From positions 23,002,001-23,066,000 of the forward strand of contig CM075103.1 of assembly GCA_037576195.1 (NCBI GenBank): 64,000 bases of DNA, written 5' to 3'. Origin of the DNA: Phytoseiulus persimilis (lineage: Eukaryota; Arthropoda; Arachnida; Mesostigmata; Phytoseiidae). Position numbers and translations under genes: made by a program. Shown in pieces: positions 1,771 to 61,264 of the stretch. Numbering within the stretch: position 1 is the stretch's first letter; the number at the start of each line of letters is the position of its first letter. The notes under the pieces are model-generated. The model was not told where the DNA came from and made no database searches. It worked only from the letters and a program-made list of their open reading frames with translations.

Positions 1771-1778
1771 TATTTAAG
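1771..1778 (+). promoter_or_regulatory. TATA-like box (TATTTAAG)
   Basis: It sits 49 bases before the ATG at 1820, so a start about 30 bases downstream would give a very short 5' UTR. Inferred from sequence and position only. Confidence 0.45.
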
Positions 1779-1819
1779 AGGTGCACGTGGCCTCTGAGAG
1801 ACCAAAGCAGCTTCGAGCA

Positions 1820-2952
1820 ATGAGTGACTGTGCTTCGATTCTGAGTTCCACTTCACCTCACCAGGATACTAGAGCTAAGCGTAGAGCTACCCGGCTTCGA
1901 CTCCAGATGACAGTGAGAATACCCTACCAACACCAAGTTGCCGACGAACACGAAATGTCCGACGACCAGTACAGTTCGAGTGATAACGAGGCTTTCGAAG
2001 AAGTTATCCCCCTACCTCCTGTTGCTGATGAAGGTGAGAATCTTGACATTTCATGCGGGGACATCTCGAAGAAGTTTTTCCGACGTTTGCGCTTGCTGTT
2101 ATCGCGCGGGTCAGTTTCTGCCGCGGTTTGCGGAGACAGGCCCAGAACCACAGCGAACTCATGGCTTGAGCTACCGGACTCACGTGCGCGCTTCGCTGTT
2201 GCGTACTGAATGCTGTGTAGGATGTCGTTCCTGGAAACGCAGGGTTCGCCATTTACCCCGCTCCTCGACGTCTGGCAGCTTGTACAGCGTGGTTATGGTT
2301 GATGTTGATTGTTCACTCATTCATACTCATGCTCCTTCCGATGAGCGTGAGCGTAATGAAGTTTGCGTCTGCGAGACGCAGAGGCCACGGGGTGACAGGT
2401 CCACTTTCCCCTCTCCCCCCCGTTCGCCTCAAAAAGCTACAGGAACGGGATCCTCGACCGAGTCATAAGGGATTGCCGCACCTCTGGAAATTTTTCGAGG
2501 AGCTCGGAACCAGAAAAAACCGTACTGCTCGCTTCCATAGATGCTCGGATCCCTCTCGAGAGCGTAACATTCAATTCATGTAGCCGTCGACAGACCATTG
2601 AGAACTGAACTCTCTTCTGAAACCGTTCCAGACAAAATGAACTAAAGTGATCTCCTCTTCGCTTGCAGACATTGACGTAGTCCACCTCCCTGACCTCGTG
2701 CCTCGAAATGACGATATCTTCCTCCAGAGAGAACTACATGTCCAGTTCTTTAGGAACCTCGGACGAGAACTACGAGACTTGAGCGACCAGTTTGTAGCAA
2801 TGCGAGTTCACCAAAAAGCTGTAGAAAAGCAGAATGTGAGCTCAGTGCGAATGGATTTCCGAACGGTAGCAATCTTGGTGAGCGGGCTGGCGGCCACGGC
2901 CGTCGTACCTTACATGGTTCTGATCAAAGGCGTACAATGGGTGTATTCGTAG
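1820..2952 (+). CDS. BH3-only-like tail-anchored apoptosis protein
   Basis: Two exons, 1820-2033 and 2669-2952, join in phase (G|AC) across a 635-base GT-AG intron to give 165 residues. Residues 102-113 read LGRELRDLSDQF, which fits the BH3 pattern (four hydrophobic positions spaced 4, 3 and 4 apart, then the near-invariant Asp 111). The block is close to the BH3 helices of vertebrate BAD and BIM. Residues about 136-157 are hydrophobic, followed by KGVQWVYS, as in tail-anchored outer-mitochondrial proteins. No BH1 or BH2 motif is seen, so a full BCL-2 protein is unlikely. The N-terminal half is acidic and Ser-rich (EMSDDQYSSSDNEAFEE), a plausible phosphorylation region. Known role of the family: the BH3 helix binds the groove of anti-apoptotic BCL-2 proteins and triggers mitochondrial death. 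Assignment to this gene is inference. The ATG at 1820 is the first ATG after the TATA-like box. Confidence 0.7.
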
Positions 2953-3250
2953 ATCTACAAGCTGGAATGCTCCGCCGCACACCTGAGGCGCCAGTCAATG
3001 ATCTGTGATAGCCTGAACGAAAAACCTTATACACACAATGTATACTTTGTACACATTGTACACACGATATCAAGTGAAGAGTCGTCTATCGACTGTGGTG
3101 GACGATATCTTCTTGCTTCCGAGCTCCACGAAGTCTTCCGGAAGTGCCGTTCGCCCGAAACTTAAGAGAATGGATGAGAGGATTTCGATGTAAACAAGTC
3201 TTGTATTAAAATTTCAAATGTATCAGCCGAAAAACAAAAACAAAAAACAG

Positions 3251-3256
3251 AATAAA
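3251..3256 (+). terminator. poly(A) signal AATAAA
   Basis: 299 bases after the stop of the BH3-like gene, in an A-rich stretch. An ATTAAA lies about 45 bases earlier. Confidence 0.5.
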
Positions 3257-38200: not shown

Positions 38201-38974
38201 CCGTTTGCACCGCGGAGTTCTCCACGGCCTGGTTCGGGAGCGATATCAAAGACTTATTGAATAGCCGGGACAAGTTCTCACAGCGTGTGCCCGCGGACGT
38301 TGAACAAAAGAGAACTCTTCTCTAGGGGGCGCAGTAGGAACTGTGAAGATTCAGTTGATTTTGGTGATTGAGACCGCTGTCGAGATACTCCGCGAGTCGA
38401 TATTCAACGAATCAGAGGCGTTCAGCATCTTGAAAAGCCCAACAATATTCTCCGGCACGGAGCTCATGGAGTCAGCGGGCGTCGATTCGCGCGGTGTTGT
38501 GGCTTCCACTCTTTCTGAAGGTTAGCGTTAAATCTCGGAACTCACTTTGGTCGTGTGTTCTATAACTGCATCTGCCGGCTGACGGTGTGAAATTTACTTC
38601 AGTTCGATTGTCGTCGATCTCGCGGAGAGCCCACGTCTGGGAAGCTCAATCGTCGATCTTTGTTATTGTGAGTGAGTTGTAATCATCGGAAGGGGATCAT
38701 CCTTTGCTTCGCAATCTCAAATCGGAAACTCGGTTCTGGATTGAGGTGCGCGTGTTGTTTCCACAGCGTGGTTATCAAGAGACGGAGCAAGGGCCCGAAT
38801 CTCCGCAAAGCTTCCAAATACGGAGCTACTTGTCTCCAGCCAGCCGGCGATCCTGCTAGAGATTCATTTACCGAGCCGTGTCCTCCGTGAATGTCGACTG
38901 AGTTCCATGGTCGCGGAACTAACTTGTGTTGATCATAAAAAAGCTCGTATTCCAGAAACCGCGAATCGCTCCGC
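35280..38974. other. intergenic, no gene supported
   Basis: Open frames at 35804-36025 (one hydrophobic segment, true ATG) and 37121-37456 have no recognisable family or splice context. Around 37028-37101, opposed AAAATGG and AAGATGGCC words resemble YY1-type promoter elements, but no coding frame of useful length starts there. Confidence 0.4.
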
Positions 38975-39427
38975 ATGGCTGGCGCGAGGATACACAAACT
39001 CGGAACTATTTTTTCGAGGACACAAGGCCTGCTGAAGTCAGGTGCTACGGCGTGGGAAAACCGACCTATTTGGTATGACATTTACGAGGCCTTCCCCCCA
39101 CTGCAAGAGCCGTCGTATTTCCGAGAGCCCCCGGCGGATCTCACGGTTCGAGAGATATTCTACAGGTTGGTACGACGCAGAGCTGTTTCAAGCGTCCTGT
39201 CTGCTACTGTGGTCGCTGACCTCAAGAGTAGGGGCACTCCAAAATTGTCGAGCTCAATTCGGTATTTCTCTTCCAGGGAGGACATCCTCCGTGCCCAGTT
39301 CGCTGAGAAGTACGGCAAGAGCACAATACCGTTAAATATAGATTCCACGACGTATGAGCTTCCTGAGCGTGACCCGTCAGGTCCTGGGGTGAACAGCAGC
39401 AAGAATCAGCAGCGGAATGTCTCTTAA
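38975..39427 (+). CDS. MRPS23: small ribosomal subunit protein mS23, mitochondrial
   Basis: Two exons, 38975-39165 and 39277-39427, splice in phase (AG|G) to 113 residues. The start MAGARIHKLGTIFSRTQGL and the motif WYDIYEAFPP (about 33-42) match mS23, as does the junction peptide EIFYREDILRAQF, where family members keep an unbroken (E)D-R-I-R-AxF helix. This junction match is strong evidence for the splice. mS23 is a structural protein of the 28S mitoribosome subunit. It is shorter than the human protein, lacking most of the C-terminal third, but AATAAA 23 bases after the stop supports the end. The 111-base intron is a multiple of three with no in-frame stop, so an unspliced message would encode 150 residues. 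It converges on another gene at 39529. Confidence 0.9.
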   Translation: MAGARIHKLGTIFSRTQGLLKSGATAWENRPIWYDIYEAFPPLQEPSYFREPPADLTVREIFYRLVRRRAVSSVLSATVVADLKSRGTPKLSSSIRYFSSREDILRAQFAEKYGKSTIPLNIDSTTYELPERDPSGPGVNSSKNQQRNVS

Positions 39428-40163: not shown

Positions 40164-40861
40164 TCACAGGGTGTGGTCCTTCGGAAACTCGAAAAGTTTT
40201 GGGAATTTCGTACGCTCTTCCTCAGGAATTTCTTCAAGCTTCCTCGGCACTCTTCGTAACTGCCGCAGCTGTCTCGAGACATTCTCCATCTCTTTCGCTG
40301 GTACTTCATCGTCCGCGTACAGATGTAACCGAGCCATGTACAGCCTCCGAGTCAGAGTTCCAGGTAGTGCGCGGTATACTGCCTTTTCGAGAACCTTGGT
40401 CGGATTCTTATCGTGCAGCTCCCAGGCTGAGGTCCACGAAGCCCCGCCGGCGTAGTCGGTATGGTGGTAATACATTCTGCAGAAGGAAGCCCAAGCCTTT
40501 ATGCGAACCGAGAGAGGTTCATGTGCGAACAAGTTCTGAATACCGCTCTTCATCAGAGGGAGAGAGCTGAATGGACCTGGTGAGATGAACTCCAAAGAAT
40601 AACGTTTCCTACTCACCGGAATTTCCACTCATACCAGGGCATGGATATTTCTCTACAATTGATCACAACTACGTGGTCCCCAGAGTCGGTGCGCGCATGG
40701 AAGAGAGGTTTGTCTTTCCCTTGAAGCACGTCTGCGATCATCTCGGCAGATTGAAAGGGGTTCTGATGTTTGGCATCGAAAATAGCCCACTGTCGCGCGA
40801 ACGTTAGTTTATGGTCGGCGCTCGCCGAAACTGTCCGCAGAAGGAACGCAGTCAATCTCAT
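40164..40861 (-). CDS. MRPL13: large ribosomal subunit protein uL13m, mitochondrial
   Basis: Two coding exons, 40617-40861 and 40164-40476, join in phase (CG|A) through donor CCG|GTGAGT and acceptor TTCTGCAG to give 185 residues, close to the usual 178. Diagnostic motifs in order: FARQWAIFDAKHQNPF (about 22-37), GKDKPLFH, GDHVVVINCREI (about 61-72), YHHTDYAGGASW across the junction, and RLYMARLHLYADDEVP with VPRKLEEIPEEE near the C-terminus. All fit uL13m, which sits on the 39S mitoribosome subunit. The ATG at 40861 is the first plausible start and precedes a Leu/Arg/Ser-rich presequence (MRLTAFLLRTVSAS). The frame stays open upstream, so the extreme N-terminus is less sure. Confidence 0.93.
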
Positions 40862-43836: not shown

Positions 43837-44048
43837 CGGTCGCCGCGCCGCGACCATCAGATTTTCGATCGTCCGTTCGTATCGATCACAGCTTCCACGA
43901 TGGGGTTGCTGCGCGATGCTGAGGCCGACATGATGAGTGCGTTCCGCCGAAAATTCCGCCCGCCCGCTACACGTGACCGATTCTGAGAATAACGGTGATT
44001 CCGGAGCTCCCTGCTCCGCTAAAGTCTCGTTTGCTTCCAGGTCCGACA

Positions 44049-44984
44049 ATGGCGGAGTGCTCCGAGTTCTTCGTGAAGAACAAGCCGTGCGCAGGCTTCG
44101 AGGAACGCTCGCAGAAAGTGAAGGATTTCTGCGATTTCCACCTGGCGAAAGCTTCGAAGGTTGTTCTGGTCACAGCGGGAGGCACCACGGTACCGTTGGA
44201 GCAGAACACGGTCCGGTTCGTCGACAATTTCAGTCTCGGTAACCGAGGCGCCGCAAGCGCCGAGTACTTCCTCGACGCAGGCTACGCTGTGATCTACATG
44301 CACAGACAGAATTCGTTAGAGCCGTACTCGCGCAACATCCACGACAACGTACTCGATCTGTTCAGCTCGAAGGACGGAGTTCTGGAAATTTCGAACAAAG
44401 TCCGCGGTCTTCTTGAGAGCCAGGTGTCCCGCTACGAGGCCGCTCGAGCGGACAACCGACTGCTGAAAGTATCTTTCACAACCGTGGCGGACTATCTCTT
44501 CCTTCTGAGAGCGACCGCGCAACATATGGAACCCTTGGGAGACCGCGCGATGCTGTATCTGGCGGCGGCCGTCAGCGACTTCTACGTTTTACCGGAGAAG
44601 ATGTCCGAGCACAAGATCAGCTCCGACACTCAACTCTCGCTCACGTTCCATCTCGTGCCGAAAATCCTCAAGCCGTTGGTGTTCTACTGGGTTCCGAGGG
44701 CTTTCGTGATCTCGTTCAAGCTGGAAACCAACGAGAAAATTCTCCTGGACAAAGCCCGCGCGGCGCTGGACAACTACAAACACCATTGGGTGATCGCCAA
44801 CGATTTGAACACGAGGAAGGAGAAGGTCATCCTAGTCAGCAAAAGTGAGCGCGAAGACATCCAGATGAGTCCTGAACAGCTCAACGGGGGCATCGAAATT
44901 GAACAGAGGATCGTCGCCCGACTCAGCAAACTTCACGACGCCTTCCTGAACACCAAGAAGGACGCCGCTGCCGAGAGACTTTGA
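44049..44984 (+). CDS. PPCS: phosphopantothenate-cysteine ligase
   Basis: One coding exon from the ATG at 44049 encodes 311 residues, the same length as human PPCS. The enzyme joins 4'-phosphopantothenate to cysteine with a nucleotide triphosphate, the second step of coenzyme A synthesis, in the cytosol. Family motifs are in order: [13 protein letters not shown] (about 38-50), [20 protein letters not shown] (about 54-73), [31 protein letters not shown] (the CoaB-type catalytic block), SFKLETN, and GIEIEQRIV near the end. The frame is open 18 codons upstream but without another ATG. An acceptor nine bases before the ATG indicates that the coding part begins right after a 5' UTR intron. I see no clean AATAAA close behind the stop. 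Confidence 0.95.
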
Positions 44985-53570: not shown

Positions 53571-55493
53571 TTATCTGTCAAGAGAACATTCGCTCCGTCG
53601 TGAAGCGCCTAATAATCGTAGTAGTGCGTCGGGCGTCATTCCTTGTATTCGCGACGCTGCCCCTATCGTCGCTGGTTTTGAGAGTTCCAGCTTCTCCATG
53701 AGTTCACCTGATAAGTTCAGTTCCTTAGATGTGAAATCAAGGTCCCTCGGTATCGAAATACTCTCGTTCAGCGAGAGTTCTTGTATTTGGCGCAGTTGCA
53801 GTTCGATGAAAGGAGCGTATAAAGCCTCGATTCTCAGTCTCTCGAAGAGGATCCGATTCTGAACAACGTTTTTCAGATCTGGATTATGATCGTGAGCGTC
53901 GAGTAGTTCGTCGACCACCAGATTCTCGTATTGGAGCATCTGGAAGCCTGACCTTGGATGAGGATTTTCTGCAACTCCACTGCTCGGAATAAGTTTGGCC
54001 CAAATCGAAGAGGAATGACTCTTCGTTTGTAGGACAAGCTTCGCTTTCTCGAGGGCAGTCGTAGTCTCAAGGAACTTCCTGTAGCGACTTTCGTGAACGC
54101 AGCCCGCCTTGTAGCCTTTCTCCGTCAGCCGCACATCCGCGTTGTCAGGTCGAAGATGAAGCCGAAACTCGGACCGAGCTGTGAACATGCGATACGGTTC
54201 CAGTGTTCCGTGGGTGGTGAGGTCATCGATCAGAACTCCGATATAGCTTTCGAGCCGATTAAGAACCACGGATTTCTCTCCTTTTATGCTCTGCACCGCG
54301 TTGATCCCGGCCACGATCCCTTGGGCTGCGGCCTCCTCGTAGCCGGTGGTGCCGTTAATCTGGCCGGCGAAGAAAAGACCGGACACTTTCTTGGTCTGCA
54401 GCGATGGGAACAGTTCCCTAGGATCGACGTAATCGTACGCGACGCCGTACCCGGGCCGCGCAAGCTCCGCTTTCTCGCAGCCCTGCATCGTCTGCACCAA
54501 CTTCAGCTGCTCCTGCTCGGGCATCGTGCACGAAATCCCGTTGGGATAGACGATGTCAGAATCGAAGCCTTCTTCTTCCAGCCAGACCTGATGACGCCTC
54601 CCGGGGAACCGGAGGACTTTTGATTCGATTGAAGGGCAATACCGAGGTCCGGTTACCTCCTCGGTGACGTGCACGTTCTGGTGCATGTTGGACTTGACGA
54701 TGTGTTCGACTACCAGCTCGGTGTGCGTCAAATGCGAAACTAGCTGCTGTTCTGGCTCCAACCAAACTCGGTCGTTCAGGAAGGAGAAGGGCACGGGTGG
54801 GTTGTCAGACGGCACCGTTTGCAATGAGCTGAAGTCTATTGAGCTCCGGACCAATCGCGGTGGGGTCCCCGTCTTGAGTCGTCCCAGACGGAAACCCAGT
54901 TTGTTCAGAGTGTTCGCGAGACCAACCGCGGGTTTGTCGCCGATGCGGCCTGCGGGCCAGGTTTCCAGACCGATATTGATCATGCCCTTGAGGAAAGTGC
55001 CGGTCGTCAGAATCACAGCCCGAGCCTCGATGAGTTCGCCGCTCTCAAGGGAGACGCCTGTGCAAGTTCCTCCGTCCAAGCACAAGTTTTCAACGCTCCC
55101 CTCGAGAACCTTCAGGTTCTGATGCTCTTGGATGGCTTTCTGCATGTGGGATTTGTAGATCTTGCGATCGATCTGGGCGCGTATGCCCCACACCGCGGGC
55201 CCTTTCTTGCGGTTCAACACTTTGTAACTGGTTCCCGAAAGGTCGCACAGGCCAGGAGAGAGTCCTCCCAGAGCATCCAGTTCTCTCATCAGGTGGCCTT
55301 TACCGATCCCGCCGAACGAGGGATTGCACGACATTTCTCCTATCGTGTCGAACCTGTGCGTAACGAGCACCGTCGATGCGCCCATCCGCGCCGCGGCGGA
55401 TGCGGCTTCGCAGCCTGCATGGCCGCCACCAACAACGATGACATCGTAACGGTGTTTCGCTGCGGAGTTCAGGAGTCGACGCACATGCAGCAT
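53571..55493 (-). CDS. MTO1: mitochondrial tRNA modification enzyme MTO1 (MnmG/GidA family)
   Basis: One uninterrupted exon of 640 codons from the ATG at 55493. With GTPBP3 (MnmE), the protein installs the 5-taurinomethyl (or carboxymethylaminomethyl-type) group on the wobble uridine of mitochondrial tRNAs. The dinucleotide-binding loop VIVVGGGHAGCEAA is at about 18-31. Family blocks follow: MSCNPSFGGIGKGHLMRELD, the GidA signature GPRYCPSIE with its conserved Cys, and the second signature GQINGTTGYEEAAAQG. The C-terminal helical domain that contacts MnmE is present. A short Arg/Ser-containing leader (MLHVRRLLNSAAKHR) is consistent with mitochondrial import. Length fits the family. The gene lies head-to-tail upstream of ANAPC4, 288 bases from its ATG. 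The lack of introns contrasts with ANAPC4. Confidence 0.96.
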   Translation of the reverse strand: MLHVRRLLNSAAKHRYDVIVVGGGHAGCEAASAAARMGASTVLVTHRFDTIGEMSCNPSFGGIGKGHLMRELDALGGLSPGLCDLSGTSYKVLNRKKGPAVWGIRAQIDRKIYKSHMQKAIQEHQNLKVLEGSVENLCLDGGTCTGVSLESGELIEARAVILTTGTFLKGMINIGLETWPAGRIGDKPAVGLANTLNKLGFRLGRLKTGTPPRLVRSSIDFSSLQTVPSDNPPVPFSFLNDRVWLEPEQQLVSHLTHTELVVEHIVKSNMHQNVHVTEEVTGPRYCPSIESKVLRFPGRRHQVWLEEEGFDSDIVYPNGISCTMPEQEQLKLVQTMQGCEKAELARPGYGVAYDYVDPRELFPSLQTKKVSGLFFAGQINGTTGYEEAAAQGIVAGINAVQSIKGEKSVVLNRLESYIGVLIDDLTTHGTLEPYRMFTARSEFRLHLRPDNADVRLTEKGYKAGCVHESRYRKFLETTTALEKAKLVLQTKSHSSSIWAKLIPSSGVAENPHPRSGFQMLQYENLVVDELLDAHDHNPDLKNVVQNRILFERLRIEALYAPFIELQLRQIQELSLNESISIPRDLDFTSKELNLSGELMEKLELSKPATIGAASRIQGMTPDALLRLLGASRRSECSLDR

Positions 55494-56673
55494 CGGTCCG
55501 CCTCTGCAATAAATGCGCTGCTTACAAAATCTTCTAACGACGTTCTCTCTGCTGGCTCTGCGTCTCTCCGTGTATTTTCGGGAGCTCTTCTAAATTCCGA
55601 CTCCCGGATGCTCCTAGCCGGCTTCAGTCACCCGTGGGGCGGTCACAGCTTTCCACGGCAGTCAGGTTTATCGTCATTTTGAACTTCCGTTCCCAATGAA
55701 TAGAAAAGGTCATGGCAACCATCGAACGACACCCACCAAGAACTGAAGCGCGCTGCAAGATCCGATTGGGAGGCTTGCAGCGTCCGACCTCGCAAAAATC
55801 TGTTTCGAGCTTGAAAGAGATGACCAACCTTTCAAGGTCCGGAGTCGATGACAAGAGGTGGACGAGCTAAACTATATTTCCGCAGGGCCACACTGTTGCC
55901 ACGCGCTGTGTTGATATTCGGTTTTTGAGATCTCCTCTCGAAGAACTCAAGCGCGCTTCTGGTGCCGTTCACAGGGTGCTATTCGAACGACTTCGAAGCG
56001 CCATGTGCGGGTTCGAGTGTATCGCGGAAGCTCAATGATCGCCCGAGGATAATTCCACGGAGCCTCCGACAGGGCTCAGATCTCTACTCTCGAGCTCTCG
56101 TGGAGCTAGTTAGTAGATCCGACTCGAACTAGGAAAGAGGAACGGCCGCGGTGTTCCCACGATTTGAGCGGCGGACCACTGTAGGTGACGCTCTGGTCGA
56201 CTCGGGTCCGCGCGGTCTTAAAGCGCGGAAAGCCGAGCTGCTCCAAATAAACAAAACAAGCCGGGACAACTCTTCTCGAACGTTTTCGCTAACGAAGATC
56301 TCGAGAGAACTCCTCAATAAGTGAGTATACCGTCTGTCGACGTAGGCTGTGCGAGCGATGTCGAAGACTCACTTTCTCCCCACTGCGGCGCTCCTGTTTC
56401 GAAACCTGAGCAGTCGCTCCAACCATAGGAAGACAGAAGTTGCTTACACTTTGACAACTCCCGATAAATATATCTCAACTTTCAACTAGTCGGCAATCCC
56501 CCCATGTTCTGTTCCCTCTTTGAGCATCGATAATTTCGACAAGGTTCTGCTGCAGGTTAAGAGTCGCCATCGCGATGGCATCATCGTGACGACTGAATTA
56601 AAATGATAACGCTGGCGTGTATACACATGAACACCGTAAGAATAGAAACATTCGACATTTCTAGGTAAACACC
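55494..56673. other. divergent promoter region between MTO1 and CXXC1
   Basis: 1.2 kb between two divergent starts. No conserved open frame or RNA gene. The bases just before the CXXC1 ATG (CATTTCTAG|GTAAACACC) could be an acceptor, suggesting a non-coding first exon. Confidence 0.4.
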
Positions 56674-59235: not shown

Positions 59236-61264
59236 TCAGTCACTTAGGCTTCTGTCCGCCGGGAACTTCAATTTTGGAGAGCACAGCGCCTGGTCGTCGA
59301 GAGGCGATGGCAGAGCAAGGTCTTCTTCTGATGCGCCCTCCCGCTTCAATTTCAAGATGTTCTGCTCGACATTTACGTATCGGTCCCAGTTGAACGTCCT
59401 GAAGAACGGGTGAATCTTGAATCCATCAAATTCGTCGAGAGATTCGCCTTTCTTGTTAACCGGTTTCTTGACACCCATTCGCTCGAGCGGATCATCCTTC
59501 AGAAGCTCGATGAGGATGGATCGTTGGTTGGCGCTCAGTCTTCGACTGATGTGTATTGTGACGTTCTTTGCCATCTCGTACCTGTAAGGCAGACGCAGTG
59601 GTTGAGCGATTCGACAATTTCTCGAGAAAGAGTCTCTGGTAACTGTGAAGTTGCTGTGGATGCTCGCTGTCATCACAGGAAAACCTTTTATCTCTGGAGA
59701 GAACCGCCAGGTCAACACCCTTCTTCCTGGCGTATATCGACAGCGGGGTCTTGCCGACAAACATCGTGTAGAGAATGATCCCGAACGACCACCAGTCAGC
59801 CCCTGTGCTGTAGGGAGACTTCTCTAAAACTTCGGGAGACATGTACGCGAGCGACCCGCATCGGCTGCTCGAATAGCGACCACGAATGCTCAGGCCAAAA
59901 TCCGTCAGTTTTGCGTCGAGGAGCCTCGACGAAGATCTCGATTGGCAGAGAAGGATGTTCGAGCAGCTGAGATCTCGGTGCAAGTAGCCCATCAAGTGCA
60001 GACACTGAACCGCGTGGGCGAGTTGGCCCGAAAGCCTGACCGACTGCGTTTCTGTCAACGGGCCGTCTGCAAGGAACAAAAAATGAAAAGAAAAAAAGGA
60101 AAAAAACCCTTCGTTATCGAGCAGCCTCGTTTCTGAGATTCATGGTGCAATGAGGGGCCGAGGAAGTTCGGAGGAAAATGTATAGAGCGGACTGGGTTCA
60201 TCCGGTCCGATGAGCGATTGACTCGTTCAGCTCATTCCGGAAGGGCCATTTCTTGGCTCCGCGGTACAGATGTTGGGGGAAACGATGCATGTGGAAGACT
60301 CCCAGTGTAATCACCTATATCTTTCAAATACTGGCTAAGACTCCCCAGCGGCGCGAACTCCATGAGAAAACACCAGTTTTTTGTTGTTTCGAAGAACCCC
60401 AACAGTGTGATGACGTTCGGATGGTTCGTGACCACCCTCCAGGCGTTGAATTCGCACTTGACCTTCATCAACTCTTTCTGCGGATCATCGTCGAAAGGTG
60501 ATTTCTGAACGCACTTCAGAGCTCCGAAGTAGGACTGCGAAGTCAGAATACGATTAGAAGCCTCCCCGGGATGATCACGTGGGCTAGGAAAACTTATCAT
60601 GACACTTTAGGCGATGGGCTGCACTCACTCCCGCAGTAATCTTGCACACAGTCCCGAACGAACCTTGGCCAATCGGCTCGTTCAATTCGATAACGGTGAG
60701 ATAGTTGATTATGTCGTCATTGACTGATTTATTCAACCAGAATGTTCCAGGTAGCACTGTCCCGAGTTCCGGCGCCTGGAGGAGTTCGAACTCGTCCTCT
60801 GGTCTCAGCTCTGTTCCTTCGAGAATCAAGCTTATGTAGCGTGGTACCGATTTTGTGCACAGTCAAGACTCAGTTTAGCATGGAACTTGCCGAAGGTGAA
60901 CCGATTGGTGAATCGAGGAAATGCTCCCGAAACTGAATAGAGTCTCTCATCTAGAAGAGTTTCTAGACCTAGTTTCGTTCAGGGTTCCCAGAGGAATCCT
61001 CGGCGGATGTTCTGAGAGTCTTCAGGAATCAGGAGCGGATTCCTTGCACGCCATGAAATCCTCCTCGCAAAGTAGCATGGGGCTACTTGTGGCGCCCCTG
61101 TTGGATCTCCGATCGAAAAACTCACGTGGAACCGTCTGGGTTATGATAGGATTGACGACCCGGTGGTGTTTCCTCTTAATTGAAAAGCTGGCACCGCCTT
61201 TTTTCATTCCGAGAGTCCCATGAGATTTCGGCAAGCGACATTCGGCATCGCTGACGCCACTCAT
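59236..61264 (-). CDS. AGC-type Ser/Thr protein kinase (S6K/RSKR-like)
   Basis: Five exons in transcript order: 61126-61264, 60629-60816, 60315-60534, 59685-60066, 59236-59581. They join in phase to 424 residues. Kinase signatures in order: Gly loop GQGSFGTV (96-103), catalytic Lys 116 in ALKCVQK, HRD at 212-214, DFG at 238-240, CGSLAYMSPE (252-261), ADWWSFG, and the AGC-type end HPFFRTFNWDRYV. Overall layout fits S6K-related kinases such as RSKR (SgK494), without a clear orthologue. The catalytic-loop Lys of HRDLKxxN is Ser 216 here (HRDLSCSN), so activity may be reduced or altered. The first exon starts at a true ATG with an in-frame stop just upstream and ends in a perfect donor (CCAC|GTGAGT). 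Its junction to exon 2 (acceptor at 60816 or 60810) is the least certain. Exon 4's donor (AAAAG|GTTTTC) is also weak. Confidence 0.82.

Follow-up and report, generated by a model that had tools for sequence, protein, structure and literature searches.

The locus at positions 1820-2952 raises the question of whether an arthropod genome can carry a tail-anchored BH3-only protein, an anchored kind that has seldom been recognised in this phylum. The usual view of cell death in arthropods is drawn from Drosophila, in which BCL-2 proteins play a small part in the process. We examined the candidate within the window, that is the whole stretch of 64,000 nucleotides that was analysed (positions 23002001-23066000 of contig C3), and against the rest of the genome. 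Judged from its sequence, the locus probably encodes a real tail-anchored BH3-only protein, which would block the BCL-XL-like protein of the genome, activate its BAX/BOK-like proteins, or both; that the candidate is transcribed, spliced, targeted to its membrane, able to bind its partners and active in cell death is what we infer. Its features are collected in Table 1.

Table 1. Features of the candidate gene and of its flanks, in window coordinates.
Feature	Position	Strand	Basis and remarks
TATA-like box TATTTAA, possible core promoter	1771..1777	+	49 bases upstream of the ATG; from position and sequence only
E-box CACGTG	1784..1789	+	downstream of the TATA-like box, ahead of the ATG; from sequence
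Exon 1, coding	1820..2033	+	71 codons and one base; acidic N-terminal part; codon usage not supportive
Intron, predicted, 635 bases, GT..AG, phase 1	2034..2668	+	splice-site sequences
Exon 2, predicted to code up to its stop codon	2669..2952	+	bears the BH3 and the tail anchor; codon usage ambiguous
BH3 core LGRELRDLSDQF, residues 102-113	2758..2793	+	16.54 bits for the 20-mer at 2749-2808, the top score among 66,926
Hydrophobic C-terminal anchor, residues 138-157	2866..2925	+	predicted; the stop follows after eight more residues
Putative poly(A) signals, ATTAAA at 3205 and AATAAA at 3251	3205..3256	+	from sequence

The preliminary description had proposed a two-exon product bearing a BH3, and this proposal holds: joining 1820-2033 to 2669-2952 in phase gives, checked letter for letter, a protein of 165 residues that runs from an ATG at 1820 to a stop codon ending at 2952 without any internal stop, and its BH3 20-mer ranks first in the window. 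The predicted donor (AAG/GTGAGA, after 2033) agrees with eight of the nine positions of the donor consensus, a level reached by 39 of the 6,935 GT dinucleotides on both strands of the window, and is the best in 1820-2660. The predicted acceptor (CTTGCAG/ACA, before 2669), with 13 pyrimidines in 16 positions, falls in the top 1.8% of 2,953 YAG trinucleotides and is the best in 2034-2749. In the frame of exon 2, a stop lies 30 bases upstream of residue 73 and no ATG occurs between that stop and the BH3, so that the BH3 could be made only with an upstream exon spliced on. The E-box at 1784-1789 is close to where transcription of the candidate presumably starts. Searching the genome (181 Mb in 127 contigs; the GC content of the window is about 52%) at the protein level revealed no second copy of the gene, the matches being its own two exons and one at E 1.2, which was rejected as a paralogue because by eye it has neither BH3 nor anchor.

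The choice of codons does not speak for coding. The codon model used 46 of 60 loci, two having been dropped because they lack a clean frame and 12 because their strand is ambiguous, and on it the scores in bits per codon are -0.091 for exon 1 and 0.028 for exon 2; the mean is 0.195 for coding 60-codon pieces (sd 0.118, n=130 from the 46 loci) and -0.160 for open 60-codon windows in the six frames of the window (sd 0.157, n=3,918). Among the coding pieces, 0.8% score as low as exon 1 and 10% as low as exon 2; among the open windows, 28.5% score as high as exon 1 and 11.8% as high as exon 2. GC3 is 0.56 in exon 2 (coding median 0.62, minimum 0.51) and 0.45 in exon 1, which is lower than in all 46 coding stretches. 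When synonymous choice only is scored, both exons lie closer to the non-coding mean, exon 2 at -0.060. On an earlier model from four genes, two of the six frames of exon 1 and one of the six frames of exon 2 had scored better than the proposed frame, which thus came third and second, respectively. The full codon score is also low in the BAX-like (0.005) and BCL-XL-like (0.023) proteins of this genome, whose synonymous-only scores (0.028 and 0.045) are both above that of exon 2. As codon usage is unsupportive, what speaks for coding is that motif, anchor, splice sites and frame come together at this locus.

The core LGRELRDLSDQF has the four hydrophobic positions, the small residue and the Asp of the BH3 consensus, all present as had been claimed. 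The scoring matrix was built from ten known BH3s; their profile, run against the PDB, matches chains of BIM, BMF, PUMA, BAK, NOXA, BAX, BID, BAD and HRK among the 60 of 151 rows listed. Within the 66,926 six-frame 20-mers of the window the candidate leads at 16.54 bits, followed by a runner-up at 11.56, and it falls inside the range of the known BH3s when each is left out in turn (8.4-30.1 bits, n=10). It comes first in 16 of 16 scoring variants, which differ in set and pseudocount, including eight without BAD, the removal of which shrinks its lead to as little as 0.45 bits. The hydrophobic moment is 0.675 at the BH3 18-mer, the maximum of the protein being 0.766, for the segment starting at residue 97.

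By BLOSUM sum against 12 BH3s, the nearest is that of the BAX-like protein of the same genome (9/20 identical), followed by BAD (LGRELRDLSDQFV against YGRELRRMSDEFV, 9/20 identical, the BH3 20-mer only being compared), with BIM at 6/20. Of the earlier statement that the motif is closest to BAD and BIM, the part on BAD therefore stands and the part on BIM does not, and the highest sum belongs to the BAX-like protein. Using the 34-mer of the BH3 region as query, a PDB search returned five matches, none of them significant alone, among them an engineered stapled BAD BH3 peptide (E 0.073) and a BAD BH3 peptide (E 0.8). Two designed TPR proteins stood above BAD in this search, and were rejected because their single repeats score only 0.6-5.0 bits each, so that their rank comes from summation over the repeats; ribosomal protein S18 (E 0.75), ranked between both BAD peptides, was taken as chance. 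The whole 165-residue protein gave no match in the PDB.

How often such a motif would arise by chance was estimated from two simulations. Second-order Markov sequence of 60 Mb contained 61.7 million 20-mers, of which 26 reached at least 16.5 bits; none of these 26 had a tail anchor, and an anchor was present at 503 of 154,103 positions sampled. A strict motif, which eight of the ten known BH3s have by eye, was then looked for in 150 Mb of simulated sequence and occurred 2,293 times: nine times with an anchor, twice at 16.5 bits or more and never with both; the real window holds two strict motifs, and an anchor accompanies that of the candidate only. Scaled to 181 Mb, chance would give about 2 strict motifs of at least 16.5 bits and about 0.01 with an anchor, or, by the matrix alone, about 0.26 with an anchor. 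Splice sites are not yet required in either case, and these are figures that are limited by the difference between Markov sequence and real protein and that overstate the surprise somewhat, since many other motifs were open to notice when the locus was first described. A set of 245 kb of real loci, in which the candidate is present two times, two pieces overlap and the BAX-like BH3 was also matched, gave one unrelated match of 16.8 bits without the Asp where about 0.1 was expected; by itself, then, the matrix is open to false matches.

The hydrophobic C-terminal anchor is likewise borne out, the best 19-residue mean hydropathy being 2.18 at residues 139-157. Exon 2 alone, given to AlphaFold2 as a single sequence, is predicted as one helix spanning residues 13-92 of 93 (mean pLDDT 78.8, pTM 0.35), and on this model a helical BH3 and a helical tail are plausible.

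Searched against Pfam (threshold E<=10, with filters that drop most matches above about 0.1), the 165-residue protein matches no family: no BH1, BH2 or BH4, no Bcl-2 domain and no BH3-only family was detected, in line with the absence of BH1 and BH2 motifs that had been described, and neither BNIP3/NIX (PF06553) nor the Sec20/BNIP1 SNARE family (PF03908) was matched, Sec20 having matches elsewhere in the genome. A match of exon 2 alone to DUF3603 (E 0.063) is under the cut-off of that family and was taken as chance. The IAP antagonists Reaper, Hid and Grim bear an N-terminal IAP-binding motif after the Met; by eye this motif is absent from the candidate, the N-terminus of which reads MSDCAS. 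Pattern searches gave 52 matches in the collection genome_contigs and five in viral_contigs, none confirmed as relatives, and because both collections are not meant for arthropods their result is silent on conservation.

The tail-anchored group of vertebrate BH3-only proteins includes BIM, BIK, HRK, BMF and PUMA. The candidate resembles them in being small, with one BH3 in its C-terminal half, a hydrophobic C-terminus and no other BH motif detected, and differs from them in having no Pfam BH3-only family match; BAD, for its part, differs from the candidate in that it is not known to have a tail anchor. The assertion that no BH3-only protein is recognised in Drosophila is outdated, as sayonara (CG14044) was reported in 2023 as the first one there (PMC10107002). 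Sayonara shares with the candidate its arthropod origin and the possession of a BH3 as the sole BH motif; the available text of that report sets it apart by its description, with 378 residues, two coiled coils and no tail anchor mentioned, and states that this BH3 arose within flies, being inferred for Muscomorpha only (PMC10107002). The coiled-coil family PTHR21974 is what characterises sayonara orthologues. According to the same report, a short motif is all that defines the BH3-only class, which is convergent, and the BH3 itself is degenerate, arises easily by convergence and needs experiments (PMC10107002). EGL-1 of C. elegans and the schistosome BH3-only proteins are, as the candidate, protostome BH3-only proteins, and the available text of a 2022 survey describes them as missing one another in sequence searches; it places BH3-only proteins in C. 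elegans and not in insects (D. melanogaster), and its main text is without the words arthropod and chelicerate (PMC8998228). The candidate, if real, would join this known convergent class as a member matching no Pfam BH3-only family. A literature search, with subscription papers mostly outside its scope, showed no arthropod BH3-only protein besides sayonara among the titles and opening lines of abstracts that were listed, and gave no paper on Bcl-2 of Galendromus occidentalis.

We then considered the genome in which the candidate stands, which had been assigned to a probable arthropod with BCL-2 homologues of its own. The chitin-binding cuticle domain (PF00379) has 95 genome matches at E<=1e-6, from which we take the animal to be an arthropod. 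The Bcl-2 domain (PF00452) occurs genome-wide at three loci, each above the Pfam cut-off and none at the candidate, and both parts of the assignment are thus upheld. The nearest PDB relative is BAX for L001 (8.8e-11), BCL-XL for L002 (2.8e-12) and, with a piece of 43 residues as query, BOK for L003 (5.9e-8). The groove arginine, which pairs with the BH3 Asp according to a figure legend, is aligned in L002 and L001 and was read by eye as SWGR in L003. The structure model of the BCL-XL-like L002 is poor (pLDDT 58.5, pTM 0.50), and the first six rows of a Foldseek search with it are titled Bcl-2-fold but have E values from 0.086 to 0.44 and a TM of about 0.2; the match of L002 by sequence does not depend on this model. 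As BAX-like and BCL-XL-like proteins are present, a BH3-only protein would be expected somewhere in the genome, which favours the candidate being real. The genome also has three caspase domain matches in two regions, eight BIR matches and two BNIP3 matches at one place on contig C1; an exon-by-exon genome search found no NB-ARC domain of the Apaf-1 type, by which Apaf-1 is not excluded.

Several other loci were recorded on the way. The two Sec20 matches, at C2:34742156-34742371 and C111:5397-5612, have equal score and profile range and are perhaps duplicated or on an unmerged haplotype contig, and six kinase-domain matches lie on one strand over about 20 kb at C3:24963118-24982595, a possible tandem array. 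The window itself encodes an MTO1/GidA-type tRNA-modifying enzyme (53574-55589, minus strand; PF01134, E 4.9e-149), an open frame with a DFP domain, which we take to be of the phosphopantothenoylcysteine synthetase type (43977-44981, plus strand; PF04127, E 4.7e-20), and a protein kinase domain match covering profile positions 91-244 (59495-60139, minus strand; PF00069, E 7.5e-28). Mitochondrial ribosomal protein S23 (38939-39424, plus strand; PF10484) lies near a ribosomal protein L13 frame on the opposite strand (40167-40628, minus strand; PF00572).

The BAX-like protein L001 calls for a closer comparison, having the most similar BH3 of the 12 compared and, by eye, a hydrophobic tail. By BLASTP it is identical to the candidate at 13 of 43 positions (E=3e-5 for the single comparison), and the likeness of the two BH3 sequences suggests that the candidate may have been born from a BAX-type gene. 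L001 differs in possessing a Bcl-2 domain and in the phase of the intron before its BH3 exon, which by eye is phase 0 as against phase 1 in the candidate. The similarity outside the BH3 is equalled by 156 of 2,000 and 182 of 2,000 shuffles and is not significant, so that these parts give a BAX-type origin no significant support. It is rather unlikely that a lineage-specific BH3-only gene arose here from the animal's own BAX-type gene, losing BH1/BH2 and keeping the BH3 and the tail anchor, and so produced a three-part switch of initiator, BCL-XL-like guardian and BAX/BOK-like effectors that would be vertebrate-like and independent of vertebrates, nematodes and flies.

The same likeness, with 9/20 identities in the BH3 and the BLASTP match, would also be found if the candidate were a piece of a longer multidomain BCL-2 protein of the BAX type whose BH1/BH2 exons had been missed. 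This is extremely improbable, given that the BH3 and the anchor share one exon that ends in a stop, that none of the three Bcl-2 domain loci is at the candidate and that the shuffles reach the weak similarity outside the BH3. We regard as quite unlikely the reading that there is no functional gene here, the locus being either a decayed gene or intergenic DNA in which open frames and splice-like sites have arisen by chance. Codon usage and GC3, both close to non-coding values, point that way, as do 1,137 stop-free 93-codon windows counted among every seventh position on both strands. They are opposed by the joint occurrence of the motif and the anchor with the best donor, the best acceptor and a phase that fits, by a joined frame without a stop, and by the exon 2 codon score of 0.028, which resembles the 0.005 and 0.023 of the BAX-like and BCL-XL-like proteins, synonymous choice being better in those two.

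It is unlikely that the gene is real but that its small tail-anchored product serves another function, for example as an adaptor, a SNARE-like protein or one acting in mitochondrial dynamics, and has a membrane-proximal helix that is BH3-like by chance. A long single helix, as predicted for exon 2, is a shape that SNAREs have too, and the unrelated 16.8-bit match without Asp in the 245 kb of real loci is in keeping with such a chance resemblance, as is the ease with which BH3 motifs converge according to the available text of PMC10107002. Weighing against it, the candidate has no SNARE, Sec20 or BNIP3 match in a genome where Sec20 and BNIP3 are matched elsewhere, and its four hydrophobic positions, small residue and Asp are complete in a motif that is rare both in the window and in simulation.

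A tail-anchored BH3-only protein, the reading that we hold to be probable, would be induced or released on a death or stress signal, and its tail would insert into the mitochondrial outer membrane (or the ER). Its BH3, as an amphipathic helix, would direct L102, L106, L109 and F113 into hydrophobic pockets and D111 to the conserved groove arginine. In filling the groove of the BCL-XL-like protein, it would free the BAX-like and BOK-like proteins, or it would activate them directly, and their activity would lead to caspase activation. If this is true, a canonical anchored BH3-only protein beside BAX-, BCL-XL- and BOK-like proteins in one arthropod would open to direct testing the question of whether some arthropods have kept or rebuilt the three-part mitochondrial switch.
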